Assembly (NCBI GenBank): GCA_029213065.1
Contig: JARGPH010000009.1
Coordinates: 107,620-161,459 of the forward strand
Reading direction: 5' to 3'
DNA from: Verrucomicrobiales bacterium
GTDB lineage: Bacteria > Verrucomicrobiota > Verrucomicrobiia > Verrucomicrobiales > DEV007
Length of the DNA: 53,840 nucleotides
A program made the position numbers and the translations under genes. Each line of letters starts with the position of its first letter. Within the stretch, counting starts at the first letter, position 1. The notes under the pieces were generated by a model. It saw only the letters and a program-made list of their open reading frames with translations. It was not told where the DNA came from and made no database searches. Positions 1-8,529 of the stretch are shown here, piece after piece.

Positions 1-733
1 CGAGCGTTTTCGTTGCCTTGGCGAATTCCGGCAGCGAGAGGGCGGGGAGGGCCGCGAGCTCTGCGTCATTGGTGATCAGCAAGGGGATTCCCGCGAGGCC
101 GGGAGCAGTGGTGAGGTCCCGAAGAAGGGTGGGATGCTCTTTCATTCCGAGGTAGGAGGAACCACCGAGAACGAATCCGGGGCGTATGAAACAGGGGAGG
201 GCTAACAGCACTTTGTCAGGTTGGCATCCGGTTTCTGTCAGGAATTGATTGATGCTCGTGGAGATGAAGGCGGTGAGCATTTTTTGTTGATCGGGCAGTG
301 ATGACGTTTCCTGATCTCCGGCGCAGGGGAGCTCAGCTAGATTTCGCTCGAAACAGGCTGAGCCCTCACGAGAAACCATTTTGATTTGAGTCTGGCCCAC
401 GTCGATGGCGAGGAGGCTTTCATTTGATTGCCTGAATGTTTCCACGGCAGCGATGCAGGCCCCTTGAATGGGATTGACGCCGAAGCAGGTGGGAATGTCG
501 AGCTTTTGAATGGCCGCGCGGATCGCGGGTATTTGAGAGCGGCCTCCGGTGATGAAGACAGAATCGAAGTCGCGGGCGACCGGATTGATCGCTCCTTTCG
601 ATTCGCTCTCGATCGAACCTTCACGCAATCTTTTGAGCGCCTCAAGGAGCAACTCAGGGTAGTCGAGACTGTCCTGCCATTCCCACAAGTTCTTCCCTGC
701 GATAGCGAGATCCCATATCTCGAGCGGGGTCAC
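1..733 (-). CDS. ASKHA-fold (ROK/Hsp70-like) ATPase, permuted motif order, 3' end outside window
   Basis: The reading frame is open to the left edge, so the C-terminus is missing (244 residues visible). I chose the GTG at 733 because it overlaps the stop of the upstream glycosyltransferase by four bases (GTGA), as at several other junctions of this operon; in-frame ATGs at 757 and 799 are alternatives. Two halves of an actin-like ATPase fold are visible in the reverse of the usual order. Residues 25-100 look like the C-terminal part, with the adenosine-type motif ITGGRS at 61-66 and NPIQGA at 87-92. Residues 108-244 look like the N-terminal part, with phosphate-1 motif DVGQT at 111-115 and a ROK-like NDAE at 222-225. 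Family: acetate kinase/sugar kinase/Hsp70/actin superfamily. The substrate is unknown; a sugar or small-molecule kinase serving the glycosyltransferases is a guess. Confidence 0.6.
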   Translation of the reverse strand, partial: MTPLEIWDLAIAGKNLWEWQDSLDYPELLLEALKRLREGSIESESKGAINPVARDFDSVFITGGRSQIPAIRAAIQKLDIPTCFGVNPIQGACIAAVETFRQSNESLLAIDVGQTQIKMVSREGSACFERNLAELPCAGDQETSSLPDQQKMLTAFISTSINQFLTETGCQPDKVLLALPCFIRPGFVLGGSSYLGMKEHPTLLRDLTTAPGLAGIPLLITNDAELAALPALSLPEFAKATKTL

Positions 734-1704
734 TCCGTCCGGTTTCCAACGCTGCATGAGAATGTCTTCGTTTCGACTACGGTGGGCCAGAATGGACATG
801 GGCGTGATGAGAGGTGCGAGTAGTAGATGCGTTCGAGGTGATAGCGGAGCTTACACAATCTGAAGGCTGCTTGAAAGATGAACCAGCCCACCTGTTGGGT
901 GAAGCCGGCCGTTTTTAATCGAGCCCAGTCGGTTCGTCGCTTCGGCCGGTTGGAAGTGTCGGTGTTGAATTCGGGAAAGAGGTAGCTGACTCGCTCCAGC
1001 TCCATGCGCATACGACGGTAGTAGCGGTGCATTCCTTCAAACGTCTCGGCCGCTTGATAGTGAATCTGCGCATCGGGTATCTCACGGATCGCTCCGGGGC
1101 CGTGCTCTTTGAGAACGGATTTGGATAGATAGATGTCGTCGGCGAGAACGCCGGACTCAAAGTGGTAAAACGGATTGTCGGGTAGTTTATCGATCCTCGC
1201 GGAAAGTTCCAAACGGGTGGGGATGTGCCAGTGGCGGATTGCGAAGAGCTTTCCGTTGAAATGGCTGCGTTTCGTTTCGAAACCGTCATTCAAATTGTAG
1301 GTGTGTAGAGCGAATGCGAGAGCGGTCCTGCGGGCCGGCTTTCGCGGCGTTTTAGCGGGGTAGGCGACCTCGAGTGCGGGGTCGGAAAACATTGCCTCTG
1401 TGATTTTTCCTATCGTTTCCGGAGAAACAAGAATGTCAGCATCAGAGAAGATGACGAAGGGCTCCCGATCACCGATGGTGCGTTGCGCTTCAACAAGTCC
1501 GCCTGATGAGAGCGCTGCGGTTACACGGGGGAAGGTTTTCGCAATAGCTTCAGTCGCGTCCGTGCAATCGTCGATAACCACGACGAGATCAAAGCGGGCT
1601 GCGCTTGTGGATTCAGCGAGCTCGATCGAGCTGATGAGTGACCGGAGGCATTCGGCGATGGTTCCCTCTTCATTTTTCGCGGTGACGGCAACCGTGATTC
1701 TCAT
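730..1704 (-). CDS. Family 2 glycosyltransferase
   Basis: 324 residues. The N-terminus is a GT-A fold: a beta strand ending in AVTAKNEEGTI (residues 6-16), VVVIDDCTDAT at 41-51, and a DXD-type metal and nucleotide-sugar motif, FSDADI, with D88 and D90. GT2 enzymes transfer a sugar from a nucleotide donor to an acceptor in the cytoplasm or at the inner membrane face. No membrane segment is obvious, so a soluble enzyme is likely. The start overlaps the stop of the preceding GT1 gene by four bases (ATGA), implying translational coupling. The acceptor cannot be read from the sequence; the neighbours suggest a small aromatic or amide metabolite, but a surface glycan is also possible. Confidence 0.82.
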   Translation of the reverse strand: MRITVAVTAKNEEGTIAECLRSLISSIELAESTSAARFDLVVVIDDCTDATEAIAKTFPRVTAALSSGGLVEAQRTIGDREPFVIFSDADILVSPETIGKITEAMFSDPALEVAYPAKTPRKPARRTALAFALHTYNLNDGFETKRSHFNGKLFAIRHWHIPTRLELSARIDKLPDNPFYHFESGVLADDIYLSKSVLKEHGPGAIREIPDAQIHYQAAETFEGMHRYYRRMRMELERVSYLFPEFNTDTSNRPKRRTDWARLKTAGFTQQVGWFIFQAAFRLCKLRYHLERIYYSHLSSRPCPFWPTVVETKTFSCSVGNRTE

Positions 1705-2891
1705 TTCGGGAGGAGGTTGCGGATGAGGCGGGCGGCGTTCTCAGCGCCGTTCGTTTGATACGACTCAGCGATTTTGCTCACCCGTGAGTTCAAGACCGGA
1801 TCATTCAGGGTTCGCTCGATTATTTCCCGGAGATCGGAAGCCGAAAGTTCATCGAGTTGAATCGTTTCTCCGCATCCGGCTTTCTCCACAAACCATGACT
1901 GATGAAACTGATCGTTGCAGATCGGTTGGATTAAAACGGGCGTGCTCGTCGCGAGCGCTTCCATCACGGAATTGGCCCCGCCGTGGGTGATGAGGAGTTT
2001 TGCCCGCTTCAGGATTTCAAGCTGCGGGGCGTAGCCGCAAACGACGATATTGGCCGGCAGGCCTTGAAAGCGCGCATCGTCCTGAAGTTCGTGAATCGCG
2101 GCAATCAGTCTGACATCCTGTCCCCGGACCGCTTCGATGATCTTCAGGAAGAAGTCCGGTTGGTAGAAAACCTGACTTCCGAAAGAGGCGTAGATCAGTG
2201 GAGAGTCGTCTCCGGGAGAATTCCAATCGAAGGAGGGTGATTCGTCTCCTCGTCGATTGAGGGGACGCGAGGGGCCAACTTGTGCGACTCCTTCCACAGG
2301 CGCGCCGGAGAATGCTTCTGTGGTAAAGGCGATTGTCAGGAATGGAGAGAGTGCATCGCAACCCCGGAACTCAGCGGTGAGGCCGAACTCTGCAAAGAGC
2401 TTGTCGCGATCCTGTGACAGTGACAGGACGGTGTCGAGGAGGTCGCTCTTTATCGCGGGAGGAAGAACCGGGTTCAGGGAATTGGAGAGGGCTACCCAGG
2501 GAATTGCCTCCAGTTGAGCGGCAATCACTGCCGGATAAATCATCGGGTCGGTGATAATGAGATCCGGCTCATAGGCCTGAATTACTTTCCTGAGGGGCGC
2601 CACTGCTTCCCTCGCTCCCTCGATCAGCATTTGCTTGATCCAGTCCCGCAGCCAGCGTTGGTCGCAGACATTCTCTGAAAATGCTTTGCCACGATTCGGA
2701 GAGGGGGGCGCGTTTTTCGGAGGGGCAAGGAATTGACTGAGCCCGGCATGAGTCAGTTGTTCCTCGATGTTCACCTGCGAATGAAAGGCGATCTCGAAGC
2801 CATCGGCCTGGAGATGCTGGGCCACTCCGATGGCGGGATTGATATGGCCCTTTTCAGGAATGACCAAAAACAGGATGCGCTTCGATTTCAT
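1701..2891 (-). CDS. Family 1 (UGT/MGT-like) glycosyltransferase
   Basis: 396 residues with the GT-B layout of UDP-glycosyltransferases acting on small lipophilic or aromatic acceptors (macrolide, flavonoid and carotenoid glucosyltransferases). The N-terminal acceptor domain carries GHINP at 15-19, where H16 aligns with the catalytic base of the family. The C-terminal donor domain has the PSPG-like stretch starting THGGANSVMEA (302-312) and ending near D327/Q328, which contact the sugar in known family members. The start overlaps the stop of the asparagine synthase gene by four bases. In this operon it most plausibly attaches a sugar to the hydroxyl of the chorismate-derived aromatic; that role is inferred from context. 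Confidence 0.85.
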   Translation of the reverse strand: MKSKRILFLVIPEKGHINPAIGVAQHLQADGFEIAFHSQVNIEEQLTHAGLSQFLAPPKNAPPSPNRGKAFSENVCDQRWLRDWIKQMLIEGAREAVAPLRKVIQAYEPDLIITDPMIYPAVIAAQLEAIPWVALSNSLNPVLPPAIKSDLLDTVLSLSQDRDKLFAEFGLTAEFRGCDALSPFLTIAFTTEAFSGAPVEGVAQVGPSRPLNRRGDESPSFDWNSPGDDSPLIYASFGSQVFYQPDFFLKIIEAVRGQDVRLIAAIHELQDDARFQGLPANIVVCGYAPQLEILKRAKLLITHGGANSVMEALATSTPVLIQPICNDQFHQSWFVEKAGCGETIQLDELSASDLREIIERTLNDPVLNSRVSKIAESYQTNGAENAARLIRNLLPK

Positions 2892-4672
2892 GACCAGCTG
2901 ACCTCGAAGTGTTTAAACCAGTGCTTCATCGCTGCCAATCGGAAAAGGAGGCTTTGCTCGGCTTCGGTCACAGGAGCGGCACGATTGATCAGGCTTCGGA
3001 GTGTGTCAGGATCGAGAACCGCCCCGGCTAAATCGAGTGTTGTCTCGAGATCGGATTGCAGTTCACGCTGGAAAGCCTGCCACCCGAGAGGTGGTTTTGG
3101 CAGGGCGGATTTGGTTCGGGTTCTGATCGACTCCGGAAGCAGTCGCCGCGCGGCGTTTCTCAGAAACGATTTTTCTCTGCCTTCGTGAAATCCCAGGTGG
3201 GGAGGGACGGTCTGGGCGAAAGCGAGGAGCTCCGTATCGCCGAAGGGGACGCGGGCTTCGAGTCCGTGAGCCATTGCGTGGATGTCGCCATTGTGGAGGA
3301 GGCGGGGGAGCCAGCGTTTCACGATCAGGTAGGTTGTCGCGCCCCGCCTGTTTTCAGCGGTGTCCCAGTTGTGCGCGCTGTCGGCAACGAGTGTGCGATA
3401 CTTCTCATCGAAATGGGCGATGGGATGACTCATAACGCTGCGCCGAATCGGAGCGGCAAAGCGGTTCTCGAACAGGTGTGAAGGACTGCGGCAGGCCTCG
3501 TCACTGAGGAGGAACTGGTAGCCGTAATGAGTTTCGTCCGCGGCGTCTCCGACGAGAACCGCCTTGTATTGTCTTGCTGCGGCTCGAGCGAGGCTGTGTT
3601 GCGCGAGTTCCTGCTCCCAGGCCGGGAGGGCATCGTTTGTTTTGGTCACTTCCTGTAGCAGGTCGTTGATCGACCGGTCGGCGACAGGAACGAAATCGAG
3701 GTCGACTCCAATCTCGCGGGCGGCTTCACGCGCGAAAGGACAGTCGTCCGAAATGACGATTCCCGAGTGGTCCGTGTCGAACTTTTCATGACCGTCAAAT
3801 GCGATTGAGAAAGCCTTGAGATCACTGTGTCCCCATCGCTTTGCCTGGGCGGTGATCAGGGTGGAGTCGAAGCCGCCGCTGAGGTAGGTGCCGACGGGAA
3901 CATCCGAGGTAAGAGCTCGTGCGACGGCCTTAGGGAGAATGGTTTGCAGTTCGTTAGAATCGGGGAGGCCTTTCCCACTGATCCAGTGATCGGGTTGATC
4001 AAAGAGGTTTGTCAAGGTTTCGAGCTGAAGTCCGTCCCGTGAAATCTCGAGGCATTGCCCCGGCTGAAGGTATTCGATATCCTGAAAAGGTGAGGTCGAA
4101 ACGCCGCTGAAACAAGGCGCGACGAGATACTCGAGAATCGCTTCGAGGTCCGCTTTGGGAGAGGTGTCAGGAATCGTGAGAAGGGCCTTTGCTTCCGATG
4201 CAAAAGCGAAGGTCCCGTTCTTGAAGCAGTAAGCGAGTGGCTTGATGCCGAGGGTGTCCCGGGCCGCGAATCCAGTCCGGCTTTCGCGATCCCAGATGAA
4301 GAAGGCGAACATGCCGTTGAGGCGTGAGAGGCAATCTTTCCCCCAACGGGTCCAGGCTGCGAGGAGGACTTCGGTGTCGCTTTCGGTTTGAAACGGATAT
4401 TCTGATTTCAGTTCGTTGCGGAGTTCCCTGTAGTTGTAAATCTCCCCGTTGAATACGAGCACGAAACGGTCGGCGGGATCTGTGATGGGTTGGTGGCCTC
4501 CTTCGAGGTCAATCAACGCGAGACGTCGATGAGAAAGGGCGACGTTGGGCTCGTGCCAACTGCCTTCACTGTCGGGCCCCCGGTGCGCGAGAGACTTCGA
4601 CATCTTGAGCGATGCTGAAAGGAGCCATTCAGCAGGTCGGTTCCAATCAACTATTCCGGCGACAGCGCACAT
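2888..4672 (-). CDS. asnB: Glutamine-hydrolysing asparagine synthase (AsnB family)
   Basis: 594 residues, full two-domain architecture. Removal of Met1 exposes Cys2 (MCAVAGIVDW), the Ntn glutaminase nucleophile; RGPDS at 31-35 and NGEIYNYRE at 75-83 are further glutaminase motifs. The synthetase domain has the PP-loop SGGFDS at 265-270 for ATP. Known family reaction: ATP-dependent transfer of glutamine-derived ammonia to an acyl-adenylate, classically aspartate to asparagine. Many cluster-encoded AsnB paralogues amidate other carboxylates. It overlaps the upstream synthetase-like gene by 22 bases and has a strong Shine-Dalgarno at 4677-4684. Its place between glycosyltransferases and a second synthetase domain argues for a biosynthetic rather than housekeeping role, but housekeeping activity is not excluded. 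Confidence 0.88.
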   Translation of the reverse strand: MCAVAGIVDWNRPAEWLLSASLKMSKSLAHRGPDSEGSWHEPNVALSHRRLALIDLEGGHQPITDPADRFVLVFNGEIYNYRELRNELKSEYPFQTESDTEVLLAAWTRWGKDCLSRLNGMFAFFIWDRESRTGFAARDTLGIKPLAYCFKNGTFAFASEAKALLTIPDTSPKADLEAILEYLVAPCFSGVSTSPFQDIEYLQPGQCLEISRDGLQLETLTNLFDQPDHWISGKGLPDSNELQTILPKAVARALTSDVPVGTYLSGGFDSTLITAQAKRWGHSDLKAFSIAFDGHEKFDTDHSGIVISDDCPFAREAAREIGVDLDFVPVADRSINDLLQEVTKTNDALPAWEQELAQHSLARAAARQYKAVLVGDAADETHYGYQFLLSDEACRSPSHLFENRFAAPIRRSVMSHPIAHFDEKYRTLVADSAHNWDTAENRRGATTYLIVKRWLPRLLHNGDIHAMAHGLEARVPFGDTELLAFAQTVPPHLGFHEGREKSFLRNAARRLLPESIRTRTKSALPKPPLGWQAFQRELQSDLETTLDLAGAVLDPDTLRSLINRAAPVTEAEQSLLFRLAAMKHWFKHFEVSWS

Positions 4673-5643
4673 GCTTCCTCCTCTTTGAGATGGCTTTGTT
4701 CCAACAGTTTGAGTGTGACCCGGAAAGTGTTTTCGCGATCACTCAGCCGATTCTTCGTTCCCTCGTAGCCTGAAATGTCCATTGGCGGCGTGAAGCACGG
4801 TCTCTTTGGTTGATGCATGAAGTCGTCCGGCAAGTATCCCATCGCGAGTTCGCGAATGACCTGTTTGTCAGGATCGGCACCTCTCGACTGGATGGACTCA
4901 ATCACCGGCGGGGAGAGAAACGGACAAACGGGTTCGATACCCTGATCTTTGAAAAGTGGAGAGAGAAGGGGCAGGTAGTCGTATGCGATTCTCCCGGCCG
5001 CAATCTGGTCGGCGCCGTCGCCGGTGATGCACGAGGTGTAGCCGCGTTTCTGAATCTCCCGGGCGAAGAGCCATTTGGAAACGGGGTGGAGGTTGTAGAG
5101 TGGCACTTCACAGGCGGAAATGACAGAGGGGAGATTTGCGACGAAGGATTCTTCGCTCACTTCAAAGACTTCGACTTCGCCCAGACCAAGGCGCTCGGCG
5201 AGACGCAGTGTTACATCCCCTTCGCAATATCCGGTGAGGTGGCTGGCGAGTGTTGCAACGCGGGGCGGATGACCGAGGATCTCTCTGAGAAGGCAGGCCA
5301 GAAGAAAGGAATCAATCCCACCGCTTAGCGCAATGACAGGGTTTTCTGAGTTGTGAAGGTGGGTCAAAAGCGCCGAGGTGAGGGCGCTCTTGAGGGGAAG
5401 GGGATCTCCGGTCGGTTCCGAGTCGCCTCCGAGTGGAAAGCTGCGGCGAATCTGCTCGAAACAGGTTGAGTGTTCCTCGACGTTTCCACTTCGGAATGCC
5501 TCAACCCCGCAGTCGCTGAAGCGGCGGCGTCGGGGCGGCATTTGAGCGAGGAGTTCTTCGATTCGCTCAGCATCTCCGCTAATCGAATCAGCGGAATACC
5601 TCGGCTGAAGACAGTCGCTCTCAGGGGGCGGGGACACTGGCAT
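4651..5643 (-). CDS. Asparagine-synthase-like ATP-dependent ligase without glutaminase domain
   Basis: 330 residues from the ATG at 5643, which overlaps the preceding radical SAM gene by 23 bases; an upstream ATG at 5691 would add 16 residues and overlap by 71. Only the synthetase half is present: PP-loop ALSGGIDS at 105-112, then a CITGDGADQ stretch typical of asparagine synthase C-terminal domains. About 90 residues precede the PP-loop and contain no catalytic Cys2 or RGPDS motif, so it should not hydrolyse glutamine itself. Relatives lacking a working glutaminase, such as beta-lactam synthetase, adenylate a carboxylate and form an amide without glutamine. Here it may ligate an amine to the aromatic acid or work with the AsnB next door. 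Function is inferred. Confidence 0.75.
   Translation of the reverse strand: MPVSPPPESDCLQPRYSADSISGDAERIEELLAQMPPRRRRFSDCGVEAFRSGNVEEHSTCFEQIRRSFPLGGDSEPTGDPLPLKSALTSALLTHLHNSENPVIALSGGIDSFLLACLLREILGHPPRVATLASHLTGYCEGDVTLRLAERLGLGEVEVFEVSEESFVANLPSVISACEVPLYNLHPVSKWLFAREIQKRGYTSCITGDGADQIAAGRIAYDYLPLLSPLFKDQGIEPVCPFLSPPVIESIQSRGADPDKQVIRELAMGYLPDDFMHQPKRPCFTPPMDISGYEGTKNRLSDRENTFRVTLKLLEQSHLKEEEACALSPE
4677..4684 (-). promoter_or_regulatory. Strong ribosome binding site of the asnB gene
   Basis: Reading on the minus strand, AGAGGAGG lies four bases upstream of the ATG at 4672. It is one of the clearest Shine-Dalgarno sequences in the window. It fixes the start so that the mature protein begins with the catalytic Cys2. 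Confidence 0.75.
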
Positions 5644-6484
5644 TGTCTCGATAAAGTTGGCGTCGAAGGGTTTGCTCCGCGATGATCTCATCCCGCTTCA
5701 GCTGATGATGGGGGCGTGAAGGCGCGTCACCTCCTAAGCATAATCGACAGGTTTCGAGCGGTTTCTTTCCTACGAGGTATTCGAGGATTTGTTCCGCAAG
5801 ATTCGGGTCGTCCGAAAGGGGGATGCCATCATTAAGGTAGGGCGAATCTTCGAGTCCTGAAACGCTGTGAACATGTGAGGGGCGCGTGCAGGTGTAAAAG
5901 CGGTCGTGGGCGATGAGGTGGCAACTGCGCCGGAGCCAGCAGGTTTCGTAAATTGCCTGCGTTTCCACTTCGTCCGCCTTGAGGTCGTCACGGTCCATTC
6001 CCACGAAGTTGTCCTGTTTTTTCCAGTTGAGTTCGACTTCGTGTTCGCGGGCCTTCGCTTTGATCGTCTCGATGACTGATTCAGGGAGCGGCGGATCGGG
6101 GTAGAGTGAAATCGTCATGTGATCGACGAGTTCCCAAAACTCGTCTTTCATACGGGGGAGAAGAAACCCATTGGAAGTAACCGAGAGGCTCGGGGCAACC
6201 TCGGCGGCTCTGGCGATTTCCAGACATTTGATAATCTCAGGATGCAAAAGCGGCTCTCCGCCCACCAGTTTCAACCGGCGCGGCGAGATCGCCTTACCTA
6301 CGAGGCTTAACTGCCGCTTCATGTGGTCTGGATCGTAGAAGCTTTTTGCGGAAACCGGAGAGAGTGAGCAGCATCCCCAACAGCGGAGGTTGCAGTGGTC
6401 AACAATGTGGACTTCGAGGGAACGGGTTTGAATTCTTCCGTTGGCGATCTCGTAGTGCTCGTTTGGATTGAGGTCTGTTTTCAT
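5621..6484 (-). CDS. Radical SAM protein with additional C-terminal cysteines
   Basis: 287 residues. The canonical radical SAM motif CX3CX2C is at C31, C35 and C38 (CNLRCWGC), followed by the GGEP SAM-binding motif at 75-78. Family members cleave SAM with a [4Fe-4S] cluster to start radical chemistry. Five further cysteines, C182, C188, C199, C246 and C249 (CRLC), suggest an auxiliary iron-sulfur cluster of twitch/SPASM type; this is an inference from spacing alone. The start overlaps the stop of the chorismatase gene by four bases and has AAGGAG at 6492-6497. The substrate is unknown. Context suggests modification of the aromatic product or of a small peptide or amide intermediate; no precursor-peptide gene was seen nearby. 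Confidence 0.8.
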   Translation of the reverse strand: MKTDLNPNEHYEIANGRIQTRSLEVHIVDHCNLRCWGCCSLSPVSAKSFYDPDHMKRQLSLVGKAISPRRLKLVGGEPLLHPEIIKCLEIARAAEVAPSLSVTSNGFLLPRMKDEFWELVDHMTISLYPDPPLPESVIETIKAKAREHEVELNWKKQDNFVGMDRDDLKADEVETQAIYETCWLRRSCHLIAHDRFYTCTRPSHVHSVSGLEDSPYLNDGIPLSDDPNLAEQILEYLVGKKPLETCRLCLGGDAPSRPHHQLKRDEIIAEQTLRRQLYRDNASVPAP

Positions 6485-7494
6485 GTGGTGACTCCTTCGA
6501 TTTCAATGAGTAGATCGTCCCGGCAGATATCGGCTTCGACGAGATGGTATGAAGTTCCTTCGGGAAATGCCGCTTCTAAAACAGGCATCAACCTGTCTGC
6601 GGAATCGCGGTGGCGCAGGTAGACTTTTAAGTGTTCGGGTGGTCTGACGGGAGTGTGCTTTTCATCTTGAACGCTCTCGACCAGAGTCGTAATCCGCGCT
6701 GCCGTTTCATGGACCTGTGCTGAGAGGTCGGTGGCGTGAACTGACTGGTGACCGGCAATGCTGGCAGTTCCAGAGAGCCAGAGATGGTGACCGGCGAAAA
6801 GGCTTCGTGAGAATGAGGGGGAAGCGGGGCCATACTGACGCGGGTAGGCATAAGCGCTGATTTGCTCTGGATTCTCGAAGGCTTCGCCACTTGCTTTCCC
6901 TGCTATGAAGCTGATTTGAAACCGATTGTCGTGGGAGCCCACCGCGCTGGCGGCTGGTAATTTCCCACCCGGTAGCCTCTCTTCAGTTACAAGGGCCCTG
7001 TGTCTGCCGAGGCAGAATTGCATGTAGTGATCAAGGTCGCTTTTTCTTTCGTGAATGTCAGGTATTACATTCCAGCACCTCCAGAGATGAAAATGGTTTA
7101 GTTTCCGGAGCGCATCGAGAATGGAGCGATAGGCCCTCAGTGTGGTCTCTTCTACCAGTCCGGGTGAGGGTAGTGTTGTCTCCCAGTGGCCAAAGGCAAA
7201 ATCCCCGGTATAAGAGATACTGAGTTCACCGTTGTGACGACGGACAATGGCGGGGGATTCAGATACATTTTGGAAGCGGTAGAGTTCCACCCATGGCTCT
7301 GTATTAACGGGTTGGAGGCTGCAGATGTTTTCATGCACATTGAGTCCTGTTATCTCGTCCTGTTCCGGAGTGAAGATCGTTGCGCCGAGGATCCGGTCCG
7401 CTTCCCCGGTGCGGATCTCCCAATAGTCCGCGAGTGCCATGACTTCAAAGACCGGTTCGAAAGATGGCATAGTCGATTCAGCCTGTTCGTCCAT
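6481..7494 (-). CDS. Chorismatase (FkbO/Hyg5/XanB2 family)
   Basis: 337 residues from the ATG at 7494, preceded by AAAGG at seven bases; an ATG at 7563 would add 23 low-complexity residues. Family features visible: the run LWRCWNVIPDI at 137-147, QFCLGRHRAL at 159-168, the AASAVGSH loop at 181-188, the core LSGTASIAGH at 240-249, and the C-terminal ADICRDDLLIEIEG at 321-334. E331 matches the position I recall as the catalytic glutamate. Chorismatases hydrolyse chorismate, releasing pyruvate and giving a dihydroxycyclohexadiene carboxylate, 3-hydroxybenzoate, or a 3-/4-hydroxybenzoate mixture depending on subtype. It is the first gene of the operon and probably commits chorismate to the pathway. 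Confidence 0.85.
   Translation of the reverse strand: MDEQAESTMPSFEPVFEVMALADYWEIRTGEADRILGATIFTPEQDEITGLNVHENICSLQPVNTEPWVELYRFQNVSESPAIVRRHNGELSISYTGDFAFGHWETTLPSPGLVEETTLRAYRSILDALRKLNHFHLWRCWNVIPDIHERKSDLDHYMQFCLGRHRALVTEERLPGGKLPAASAVGSHDNRFQISFIAGKASGEAFENPEQISAYAYPRQYGPASPSFSRSLFAGHHLWLSGTASIAGHQSVHATDLSAQVHETAARITTLVESVQDEKHTPVRPPEHLKVYLRHRDSADRLMPVLEAAFPEGTSYHLVEADICRDDLLIEIEGVTT
6492..6497 (-). promoter_or_regulatory. Ribosome binding site of the radical SAM gene
   Basis: AAGGAG on the minus strand sits seven bases upstream of the ATG at 6484 and lies inside the end of the chorismatase gene. It supports the four-base overlap start. Confidence 0.7.
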
Positions 7495-7574
7495 AAGTTG
7501 GCCTTTACGCGGGGGCAACTTCCCGGGTTCACGGCTGGCTGGGGGAAATGGAATGGAGCCCATGATCGTTTAGA

Positions 7575-7588: not shown

Positions 7589-7722
7589 CATTCAGTTCAG
7601 AGGATGATAATGTAAAAAATACACTAAGTAAAGGCCGATTGTCTTTTGAATGGCAATTTGAGGATTTCGGAATGTCTCCGGCCCGGGAATAGAGGGTGTT
7701 GTCGCTCCCTGTTTGCTCATTT

Positions 7723-8529
7723 ATGGAGTTGTTACAAACTACGTATCGGGTTCTTTACTCACTTGCTATTCAGGTTGCTGTTTGGTATACAAAAACTGTG
7801 GATTTCAAGAATACTACTATTCGATCGTTTCCTGCGACCCGGTGGTCATTGATTGCCGAGGTAGCGGATCAGGATCCCGTGAAGAAAGCGAAGGCACTGG
7901 AGGAGTTGTGCCGGGTATATTGGCCTCCTGTATATGCCTTTATTCGCTCGAAAGGGGCTAATCAGGCGGAGGCTGAGGATCTGACTCAGGGCTTCTTTCT
8001 GAGCTTTCTGGCTCGCGATGACTTCTCAAAAGCGTCCCGGGAGTGTGGTAAGCTCAGAACCTATATGCTGCGTTCTGTTCAGAACTTCATGAACAATGAC
8101 TGGCGGAGCCGTCAGTGCCTCAAGAGGGGTGGCGGGGTCGAGGTGTTGTCTATCGATATTGAATACGAAGATGGACACGGCAAGTTTATTGAACCGACCG
8201 AAAAGGATACGCCGGAGTCGATTTTTGATCGTCAGTGGGCAATCACGATTCTTCACAATGTTCTCGAGGCGCTCGAGCAGCGATATGAGGCCAAGGGGCA
8301 GGGAAGTCTTTTTCAATCGCTTCGCCATGTTATTTCCACTGGCGAAACCGGTGCCACTTATGCGGAAGTGGCGAAGTCTGAGGGAATGACAGAGAACGCG
8401 GTGAAAGTCGCTGCTCATCGTTTGCGGAACCGCTACGCCACTTTACTCAGGAAGACGGTATCTGATACCTTGTTAGAGGGTGGCGGCACGGGGAAGGAAT
8501 TGGAGGAATTGATGGCGGCTTTCGAGTGA
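7723..8529 (+). CDS. ECF-like RNA polymerase sigma factor (PVC type)
   Basis: Region 2 is recognisable from FPATRWSLIAEV through YWPPVYAFIR and AEDLTQGFFLSF. Region 4 is near the C-terminus (ATYAEVAKSEGMTENAVKVA), a helix-turn-helix for -35 recognition. The combination FPxTRW plus EDLTQGFF is characteristic of ECF-like sigma factors common in Verrucomicrobia and Planctomycetes, often encoded next to Ser/Thr protein kinases. The start is uncertain: ATG 7723 is used here, GTG 7696 is possible, and GTG 7798 would remove a poorly conserved hydrophobic leader and begin ten residues before FPATRW. No anti-sigma gene is adjacent. The next gene is only a kinase N-terminal stub. Confidence 0.85.
   Translation: MELLQTTYRVLYSLAIQVAVWYTKTVDFKNTTIRSFPATRWSLIAEVADQDPVKKAKALEELCRVYWPPVYAFIRSKGANQAEAEDLTQGFFLSFLARDDFSKASRECGKLRTYMLRSVQNFMNNDWRSRQCLKRGGGVEVLSIDIEYEDGHGKFIEPTEKDTPESIFDRQWAITILHNVLEALEQRYEAKGQGSLFQSLRHVISTGETGATYAEVAKSEGMTENAVKVAAHRLRNRYATLLRKTVSDTLLEGGGTGKELEELMAAFE

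Follow-up and report, generated by a model that had tools for sequence, protein, structure and literature searches.

The window analysed here is a stretch of 53,840 nucleotides from a Verrucomicrobiales bacterium (G000:C77:107620-161459), and its left end holds most of a minus-strand operon in which a chorismatase gene is followed by genes for a radical S-adenosylmethionine (SAM) protein (rSAM), two asparagine-synthase-like ligases, two glycosyltransferases, an ASKHA/ROK-like protein and a PIG-L deacetylase. The conserved unit is the seven-gene cassette from rSAM to PIG-L rather than the combination with the chorismatase, since this cassette recurs in related genomes without it. We put at roughly 45% the probability that this accessory cassette makes an undescribed small molecule containing an amino-sugar, without a polyketide synthase (PKS) or nonribosomal peptide synthetase (NRPS) in the operon, and that it is coupled here to an intact chorismatase supplying hydroxybenzoate. 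On the best reading of its gene families, the cassette would encode a pathway to a small-molecule glycoside that includes a radical SAM enzyme of the aminoglycoside type. The genes of the operon, listed from its first gene, are:

6481..7563, minus strand: chorismatase of the FkbO/Hyg5/XanB2 superfamily (PF21168, TIGR04444), first gene of the operon
5621..6484, minus strand: rSAM, a HygY-like radical SAM protein (PF04055)
4651..5643 from the start shared with its relatives (earliest ATG at 5691), minus strand: AsnB-like ligase without a glutaminase domain (PF00733 alone)
2888..4672, minus strand: AsnB, a full-length glutamine-dependent, asparagine-synthase-like amidotransferase (TIGR01536, PF13537, PF00733)
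1701..2891, minus strand: GT1 glycosyltransferase, macrolide (MGT)-family-like (TIGR01426, PF00201)
730..1704, minus strand: GT2 glycosyltransferase (PF00535)
2..799 (start shared with its relatives probably at 757), minus strand, truncated at the window edge: ASKHA/ROK-like protein recognised by motifs, possibly a kinase
L002:14571-15419, left of the window: continuation of the ASKHA-like gene
L002:13744-14574, left of the window: PIG-L deacetylase (PF02585, 44 bits; PHFDD and THIDH motifs), last gene of the operon

Organization of the Operon

Seven co-directional, overlapping genes, described at 1-7563 in an earlier note on this DNA, occupy positions 2-7563, all on the minus strand. The overlaps amount to 4 nt for chorismatase/rSAM, AsnB/GT1 and GT1/GT2, 22 nt for AsnB-like ligase/AsnB, 23 nt for rSAM/AsnB-like ligase (71 nt from the first ATG) and 28 nt for GT2/ASKHA-like (70 nt from the first ATG). 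The suspicion that the operon might extend to the left was borne out: the rest of the ASKHA-like gene lies there, with a 10-N scaffold gap inside it (L002:14611-14620) directly left of window base 1, and this gene overlaps the PIG-L gene by 4 nt. About 200 nt beyond PIG-L stand a SpoU methylase and a cytochrome c-type protein and, further left, AraC-, hom- and thrC-like open reading frames (by eye) that are seemingly unrelated to the operon. Since PIG-L overlaps the ASKHA-like gene and is followed by seemingly unrelated genes, the operon has eight genes, all of which overlap their next neighbour by 4 to 28 nt when counted from shared starts. A look to the left for transporter or methyltransferase genes, as recommended in the earlier note, adds a PIG-L gene to the operon, the SpoU methylase being outside it. 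Family searches found no PKS or NRPS gene among the eight, and the operon looks, from the families of its genes, like the single biosynthetic unit lacking such synthases that had been proposed. Six of the seven families originally named were recovered with Pfam or NCBIfam models; the ASKHA assignment found no family match and is based on motifs.

A Seven-Gene Cassette in Related Genomes

Two genomes of another family, G082 and G491, have no chorismatase at this locus but carry all seven genes of the cassette (rSAM, AsnB-like ligase, AsnB, GT1, GT2, ASKHA-like, PIG-L), arranged as in the window's operon. Because this order recurs in two other genomes, it is not a matter of chance. Identities to the window proteins (G082 and G491, respectively) are 51 and 54% for rSAM, 35 and 35% for the AsnB-like ligase, 46 and 46% for AsnB, 47 and 51% for GT1, 46 and 46% for GT2, 27 and 29% for the ASKHA-like protein, and 32 and 42% for PIG-L, the last value covering residues 4-175 only. 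Catalytic motifs are retained in the cassette copies examined. In G008, a genome of the window's own genus, rSAM, ligase and AsnB overlap by 44 and 25 nt, after which the contig ends.

The cassette is rare. At E ≤ 1e-12, two of the family's 74 genomes have the rSAM (the window's own and G008), and four of the order's 386 have the AsnB-like ligase (G000, G008, G082 and G491). An rSAM profile picked out 5 of 384 genomes of the class at E ≤ 1e-30 (G000, G082, G079, G736 and G755) and matched 3 of the 48 genomes of G491's genus, one of these matches being a remnant. This remnant, in G079 (L190:10380-10745), comprises the first 110 rSAM codons, 89% identical to G491, and is followed by pncA, the other cassette genes being missing there; it reads as a loss by deletion. 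G755 encodes a longer rSAM protein with no other cassette gene at E ≤ 1e-4 within 19.9 kb, and a search of the order of G736 returned that genome alone among 6. The cassette was thus found in three complete copies, one copy cut at a contig end, one reduced cluster (G736, described below) and one remnant. Searching with the single rSAM sequence was given up as a way of finding cassettes: it matched 175 of 387 genomes of the phylum at E ≤ 1e-3, mostly through short matches to other radical SAM proteins. Its best match outside the window's genome (E 1.4e-18, 26% over 243 residues) and four more had no other cassette gene in their neighbourhoods at E ≤ 1e-2. The rSAM profile flagged 85 stretches in IMG/VR, none of which was confirmed, and the AsnB-like ligase had no match in a plasmid collection. 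Word searches of the open-licence literature did not find the cassette described, which by itself does not show its absence from print.

The HygY-like Radical SAM Protein

The rSAM matches PF04055 with 38 bits, and its best relative in the PDB is 7wzv, which we take to be SpeY (131 bits over residues 12-265, that is, 254 residues). The protein has a CX3CX2C motif, four further cysteines that could hold an auxiliary cluster and a cysteine at the position of the presumed hydrogen donor, as expected of a HygY-type twitch enzyme. Cys31/35/38, Cys182, Cys188, Cys199, Cys246 and Cys249 are invariant in four cassette rSAMs and in a HygY-like protein of Streptomyces; Cys188 aligns with Cys183 of the latter, presumably the hydrogen-donor residue of HygY, and 7wzv has a serine at this position in the alignment (by eye). 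The Streptomyces protein came from the plasmid collection, where three rSAM matches were found, the best being a radical SAM protein of Streptomyces sp. SAT1 with 34% identity. Genes for glycosyltransferases and aminotransferases lie around it, as does a predicted APH(7'') gene (95% identity), and this stretch is read as a probable hygromycin B-type cluster whose radical SAM protein would be HygY. HygY is reportedly a twitch epimerase with a latent dehydrogenase activity that appears when one cysteine is mutated.

For the related NeoN, Cys249 supplies the hydrogen atom, according to PMC10991966. Given the resemblance to HygY and the cysteine at the place of Cys183, sugar epimerization is the likeliest reaction of rSAM, and a sugar or cyclitol epimerase its likeliest identity. 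The window protein shares with the HygY-like protein the CX3CX2C motif, the further cysteines and the cysteine at HygY position 183. The pathways of HygY, NeoN and SpeY are aminoglycoside pathways, whereas the window operon has no aminocyclitol or sugar-nucleotide gene among its eight.

Ligases, Glycosyltransferases and PIG-L

The AsnB-like ligase matches PF00733 with 85 bits and has no GATase match, hence no recognisable glutaminase domain; SGGxDS and TGDxADQ are present in all four copies, and a profile built from these four matches both AsnB (1ct9) and beta-lactam synthetase (1jgt). Its neighbour AsnB exceeds the cut-off of TIGR01536 with 392 bits and combines an N-terminal Cys2 with the PP-loop, Cys2, SGGxDS and GDAADE being kept at 5/5 loci. 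Its best match in the PDB is 7ylz, a 'hydroxyamidotransferase' (204 bits). The AsnB-type PP-loop is common to both cassette ligases and the natural-product enzymes 7ylz and 1jgt, as is the glutaminase cysteine in the case of AsnB. The cassette differs in having two tandem ligase genes, one of them without any glutaminase domain.

GT1 passes the cut-off of PF00201, scores 169 bits against TIGR01426 (cut-off 260) and has HGGANSVME and NDQ in 4/4 copies. GT2 matches PF00535 with 41 bits and has the DAD motif in all three copies; at one motif that the search pattern missed, the window protein reads VIDDCTD (by eye). PIG-L is assigned by PF02585 and by the PHxDD and HxDH motifs of PIG-L deacetylases, found in 3/3 copies. 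Modules of glycosyltransferase and PIG-L deacetylation occur in aminoglycoside (NeoD/BtrD), mycothiol and bacillithiol pathways. The operon likewise holds glycosyltransferases and PIG-L, here together with a ligase, and the PIG-L of G491 is only weakly similar to BshB1 of the bacillithiol module (26 bits, cut-off 182).

The ASKHA/ROK-like Protein

The window copy of this protein matches no Pfam or NCBIfam model, the other two copies (L175:13741-14547 and L176:14329-15120) match no Pfam model in native or rotated form, and none of the three matches the ROK profile PF00480. All three share D(V/L)GQ(T/S), NDAELAA and a C-terminal F-G-x-G. Compared with four ROK proteins using hhalign, their profile gave a local match at the ND...GTG part only, with a nominal E of 0.001; against the PDB it gave two chance-level matches.

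A GG-type motif precedes DxGQ(T/S), and the protein ends soon after F-G-x-G, an order unlike that in the four ROK proteins compared. Lobes in swapped order, or an otherwise rearranged ASKHA fold, are possible. Circular permutation, suggested by the motif order, is not claimed: neither the rotated nor the native sequences matched Pfam, nor do the global profile scores speak for rotation, being 24.3 for the native order, 25.5 when cut at column 288/293, and about 20-23 for cuts at 120-138, close to where the break would be expected. An AlphaFold model of the protein alone had a mean predicted local distance difference test (pLDDT) score of 38 and was set aside.

The Chorismatase

The chorismatase scores 88 bits against PF21168 and 162 bits against TIGR04444, under that model's cut-off of 325, and it matches the solved FkbO and Hyg5 chains 5ag3, 4bps and 5a3k. 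The catalytic glutamate is E334 of Hyg5, and the marks of class CH-II are Gly164, Gly231 and Cys318 of Nat-hyg5, as given in PMC7170507. Using the offset of the catalytic glutamate, these three were mapped to Hyg5 positions 173, 240 and 327. As the earlier note presupposed, the window protein keeps the family's active-site residues: Glu354 corresponds to E334, Cys347 to C327 and Gly265 to G240. It therefore has Gly and Cys in place of the two alanines that mark CH-I (FkbO) at positions 240 and 327 in 4bps, and two of the three CH-II (Hyg5) residues, the third being Ala207 at the position of Hyg5 G173. The glutamate is kept in 80/80 proteobacterial rows and in 27 of 29 rows from relatives, the other two being truncated; alanine at the 173 position also occurs in 75 of the 80 proteobacterial rows. 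These 80 are probably XanB2-like, in a comparison that included no verified XanB2 sequence. With Hyg5 the window chorismatase thus shares homology, the catalytic Glu and the Cys and Gly that separate Hyg5 from FkbO, and differs from it by the alanine and by the lack of a PKS in this operon; with XanB2 (CH-III) it shares sequence homology. Its predicted product is 3-hydroxybenzoate, possibly with 4-hydroxybenzoate.

Chorismatase-like matches (E ≤ 1e-3) occur in 42 of 95 related genomes, and the window chorismatase is the sole such match in its own genome. A tree of 57 rows, which took in one proteobacterial row in three (27 of the 80) and omitted the partial rows L014 and L027, places it outside a clade, supported at 100/100, that unites 24 of the order's 27 rows. 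It stands on a long branch (1.33) beside the proteobacterial rows, a placement that is weakly supported. Longer chorismatase-like proteins of 442-462 residues were also seen in the order (L031-L033); only the C-terminal part of the query was matched in them, and the active-site Gly, Cys and Glu are present.

The chorismatase had been thought of as the conserved anchor of the gene set, an idea dropped because the cassette genes are absent from the best scanned chorismatase loci. A contig scan yielded at least 599 candidate stretches, of which 575 were confirmed and the best 80 kept, with flanks of up to 10 kb and many contigs ending near the match; within these flanks, none of the 80 loci, proteobacterial by their titles, had another cassette gene at E ≤ 1e-3. 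Neither did 20 chorismatase loci of related genomes at E ≤ 1e-2.

The reduced cluster of G736 bears on the same question. There, a chorismatase-like domain is fused N-terminally to a cassette-type rSAM (L209:9811-11397, minus strand) that is 37% identical to that of the window. The domain scores 23 bits (E 9e-5) against PF21168 (cut-off 27), 27 bits against TIGR04444 (cut-off 325) and 31 bits against our own profile. GT1 and AsnB genes adjoin the fusion (43% identity each), and a PaaK-like, AMP-binding protein scoring under the family cut-offs is encoded upstream; this locus yielded no ligase, GT2, ASKHA-like or PIG-L gene. A chorismatase-type domain and this rSAM are hence paired in two of the class's families, as overlapping genes in one and as a single fused protein in the other. 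Beyond the fusion lies a gene (L209:6963-9281, minus strand) for a 772-residue protein that joins an isochorismatase-type domain to TCAD9 and dual-specificity phosphatase domains; NadR-type and PaaK-like genes are close by.

Proposed Pathway

The steps proposed here we infer from protein families and residues; gene content, conserved order and the retained catalytic motifs are what was directly observed. Briefly, the chorismatase would convert chorismate to 3-hydroxybenzoate and pyruvate. GT1 and GT2 would assemble a glycoside with at least one N-acetylated sugar, from which PIG-L would strip the acetyl group to leave a free amine. The ligase without a glutaminase domain may adenylate a carboxylate, here most simply that of hydroxybenzoate, and couple it to the amine freed by PIG-L, while AsnB would turn a second carboxylate into a carboxamide using glutamine. 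The rSAM would remove a hydrogen from a sugar C-H, and Cys188 would give one back from the opposite face, inverting the centre. Finally, the ASKHA/ROK-like protein could phosphorylate a sugar, for activation or for self-protection. The earlier note had favoured a glycosylated aromatic amide as the simplest product; because enzymes of the rSAM's type include known sugar epimerases and dehydrogenases, the likely product moves from there toward an amino-sugar scaffold.

Several observations weigh against this proposal. G082 and G491 are complete without a chorismatase, so the cassette manages without one there, and in G008 the rSAM gene is preceded by a DUF1501 gene and by no chorismatase. In the chorismatase-like domain of G736, the catalytic Glu and the Cys are gone and other active-site columns differ as well; judged by its residues, the domain is no functional chorismatase, and it may serve another function. 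Ala207 leaves the choice between 3- and 4-hydroxybenzoate undecided. AsnB-type enzymes amidate surface glycans too. No sugar-nucleotide, aminocyclitol or exporter gene is present among the eight genes of the operon. Clusters for 2-deoxystreptamine aminoglycosides carry 2-deoxy-scyllo-inosose synthase and aminotransferases; these are likewise missing from the eight, the neighbours having been read by eye only and no genome-wide search having been made.

Alternative Explanations

The cassette could instead be a complete pathway acting on a non-aromatic scaffold, the chorismatase being a later neighbour that shares its promoter and feeds another pathway, for instance one to an aromatic pigment. 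This we regard as possible, though somewhat doubtful. The chorismatase-free cassettes of G082 and G491, the DUF1501 gene of G008 and the 80 scanned loci all fit it, as do two related loci at which chorismatases stand beside MMPL exporters (Pfam), one also beside a halogenase-like flavoprotein; the chorismatase of G008 itself is on a separate contig and adjoins an MMPL-type protein. Against this, the stop and start of chorismatase and rSAM overlap by 4 nt, the window's genome has no second chorismatase match, the enzyme does not belong to the main chorismatase clade of its order, and the fusion in G736 argues against a mere bystander. The order from chorismatase to ASKHA, for which the earlier note proposed a search, stands from rSAM onward, where it extends to PIG-L, and fails for the chorismatase. 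The same division applies to its remark that genes failing to co-occur in other genomes would count against it: this is what was found for the chorismatase, partly rescued by G736, and not for the other cassette genes. A role in modifying a cell-surface or membrane glycan, with AsnB amidating a uronic acid, PIG-L deacetylating a GlcNAc unit, the glycosyltransferases lengthening the chain and no diffusible metabolite being made, appears unlikely. PIG-L enzymes act on glycans and lipids, AsnB scores 309 bits against TIGR03108 (exopolysaccharide-associated) and 288 bits against TIGR03104, both far under the cut-offs, and GT2 has one hopanoid-type match, HpnB, at 18 bits. However, no flippase, polymerase or exporter is found among the eight genes, nor was any spotted by eye in the flanks read, GT1 resembles MGT enzymes, HygY-type radical SAM proteins are known from aminoglycosides, and the closest structure to AsnB is a hydroxyamidotransferase.

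NAD-salvage genes stand beside the cassette in two lineages, which raises a further alternative, namely that its substrates are NAD-type metabolites or nicotinate. In both G082 and G491, pncB stands on one side of the cassette and pncA on the other, and the locus also holds genes for macro-domain proteins, KptA or ADP-ribosylglycohydrolase; the gene that rSAM overlaps, by 4 nt, is pncB in G082 and the macro gene in G491. In G736, a gene resembling NadR-type NMN adenylyltransferases (TIGR01526, 108 bits, cut-off 341) sits between the PaaK-like gene, which it overlaps by 4 nt, and AsnB, 12 nt away, and the rSAM fusion is followed by a gene for a protein with an isochorismatase-superfamily domain. 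However, among the 12 of 48 genomes of the G082/G491 genus with pncB at E ≤ 1e-100, two have the cassette, one (G079) has the rSAM remnant, eight have pncA after pncB and no cassette, and in one the contig ends before pncA. The gap between pncB and pncA (L190-L199, L175, L176) measures about 80 nt or holds other genes or the cassette; the one wide gap tested contains an endonuclease V family stretch. The cassette-free genomes and the endonuclease V gap indicate that the cassette occupies a variable slot there, and this empty-site comparison weakens the NAD link as a main explanation. In addition, tblastn with the NAD-locus proteins of G491 and G082 found none in the 32 kb left of the window operon, and none of these genes was recognised by eye at window positions 7.6-14 kb or on the 5.4-kb contig of G008. 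Such a role is very improbable. No likelier to hold is the bolder idea that the cassette makes nicotinamide-mimicking aryl-carboxamide glycosides. In that case AsnB would amidate 3-hydroxybenzoate in the window's genome, or an acid derived from nicotinate where NAD-salvage genes adjoin the cassette, and the glycosyltransferases, rSAM and ASKHA-like protein would convert the amide into an antimetabolite or signal resembling NAD or ADP-ribose. 3-Hydroxybenzamide inhibits ADP-ribosylation.

Flanking Genes

On the right, a sigma-70 family gene (7696-8529, plus strand) diverges from the operon 132 nt from the chorismatase start and is a possible operon regulator. A promoter scan upstream of the chorismatase gave two weak minus-strand matches against 0.7 expected by chance, from which no support is drawn.

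Significance

Taken together, the amino-sugar pathway proposed here would be a conserved, antibiotic-like cassette that has an aminoglycoside-type radical SAM enzyme, yet whose own genes include neither the customary scaffold genes nor a PKS or NRPS, and such clusters may evade rule-based mining. If the chorismatase belongs to the cassette, AsnB-type ligases would join hydroxybenzoate to an amino-sugar. Related genomes show complete, reduced and lost states of the cassette, which makes the role of each gene testable.

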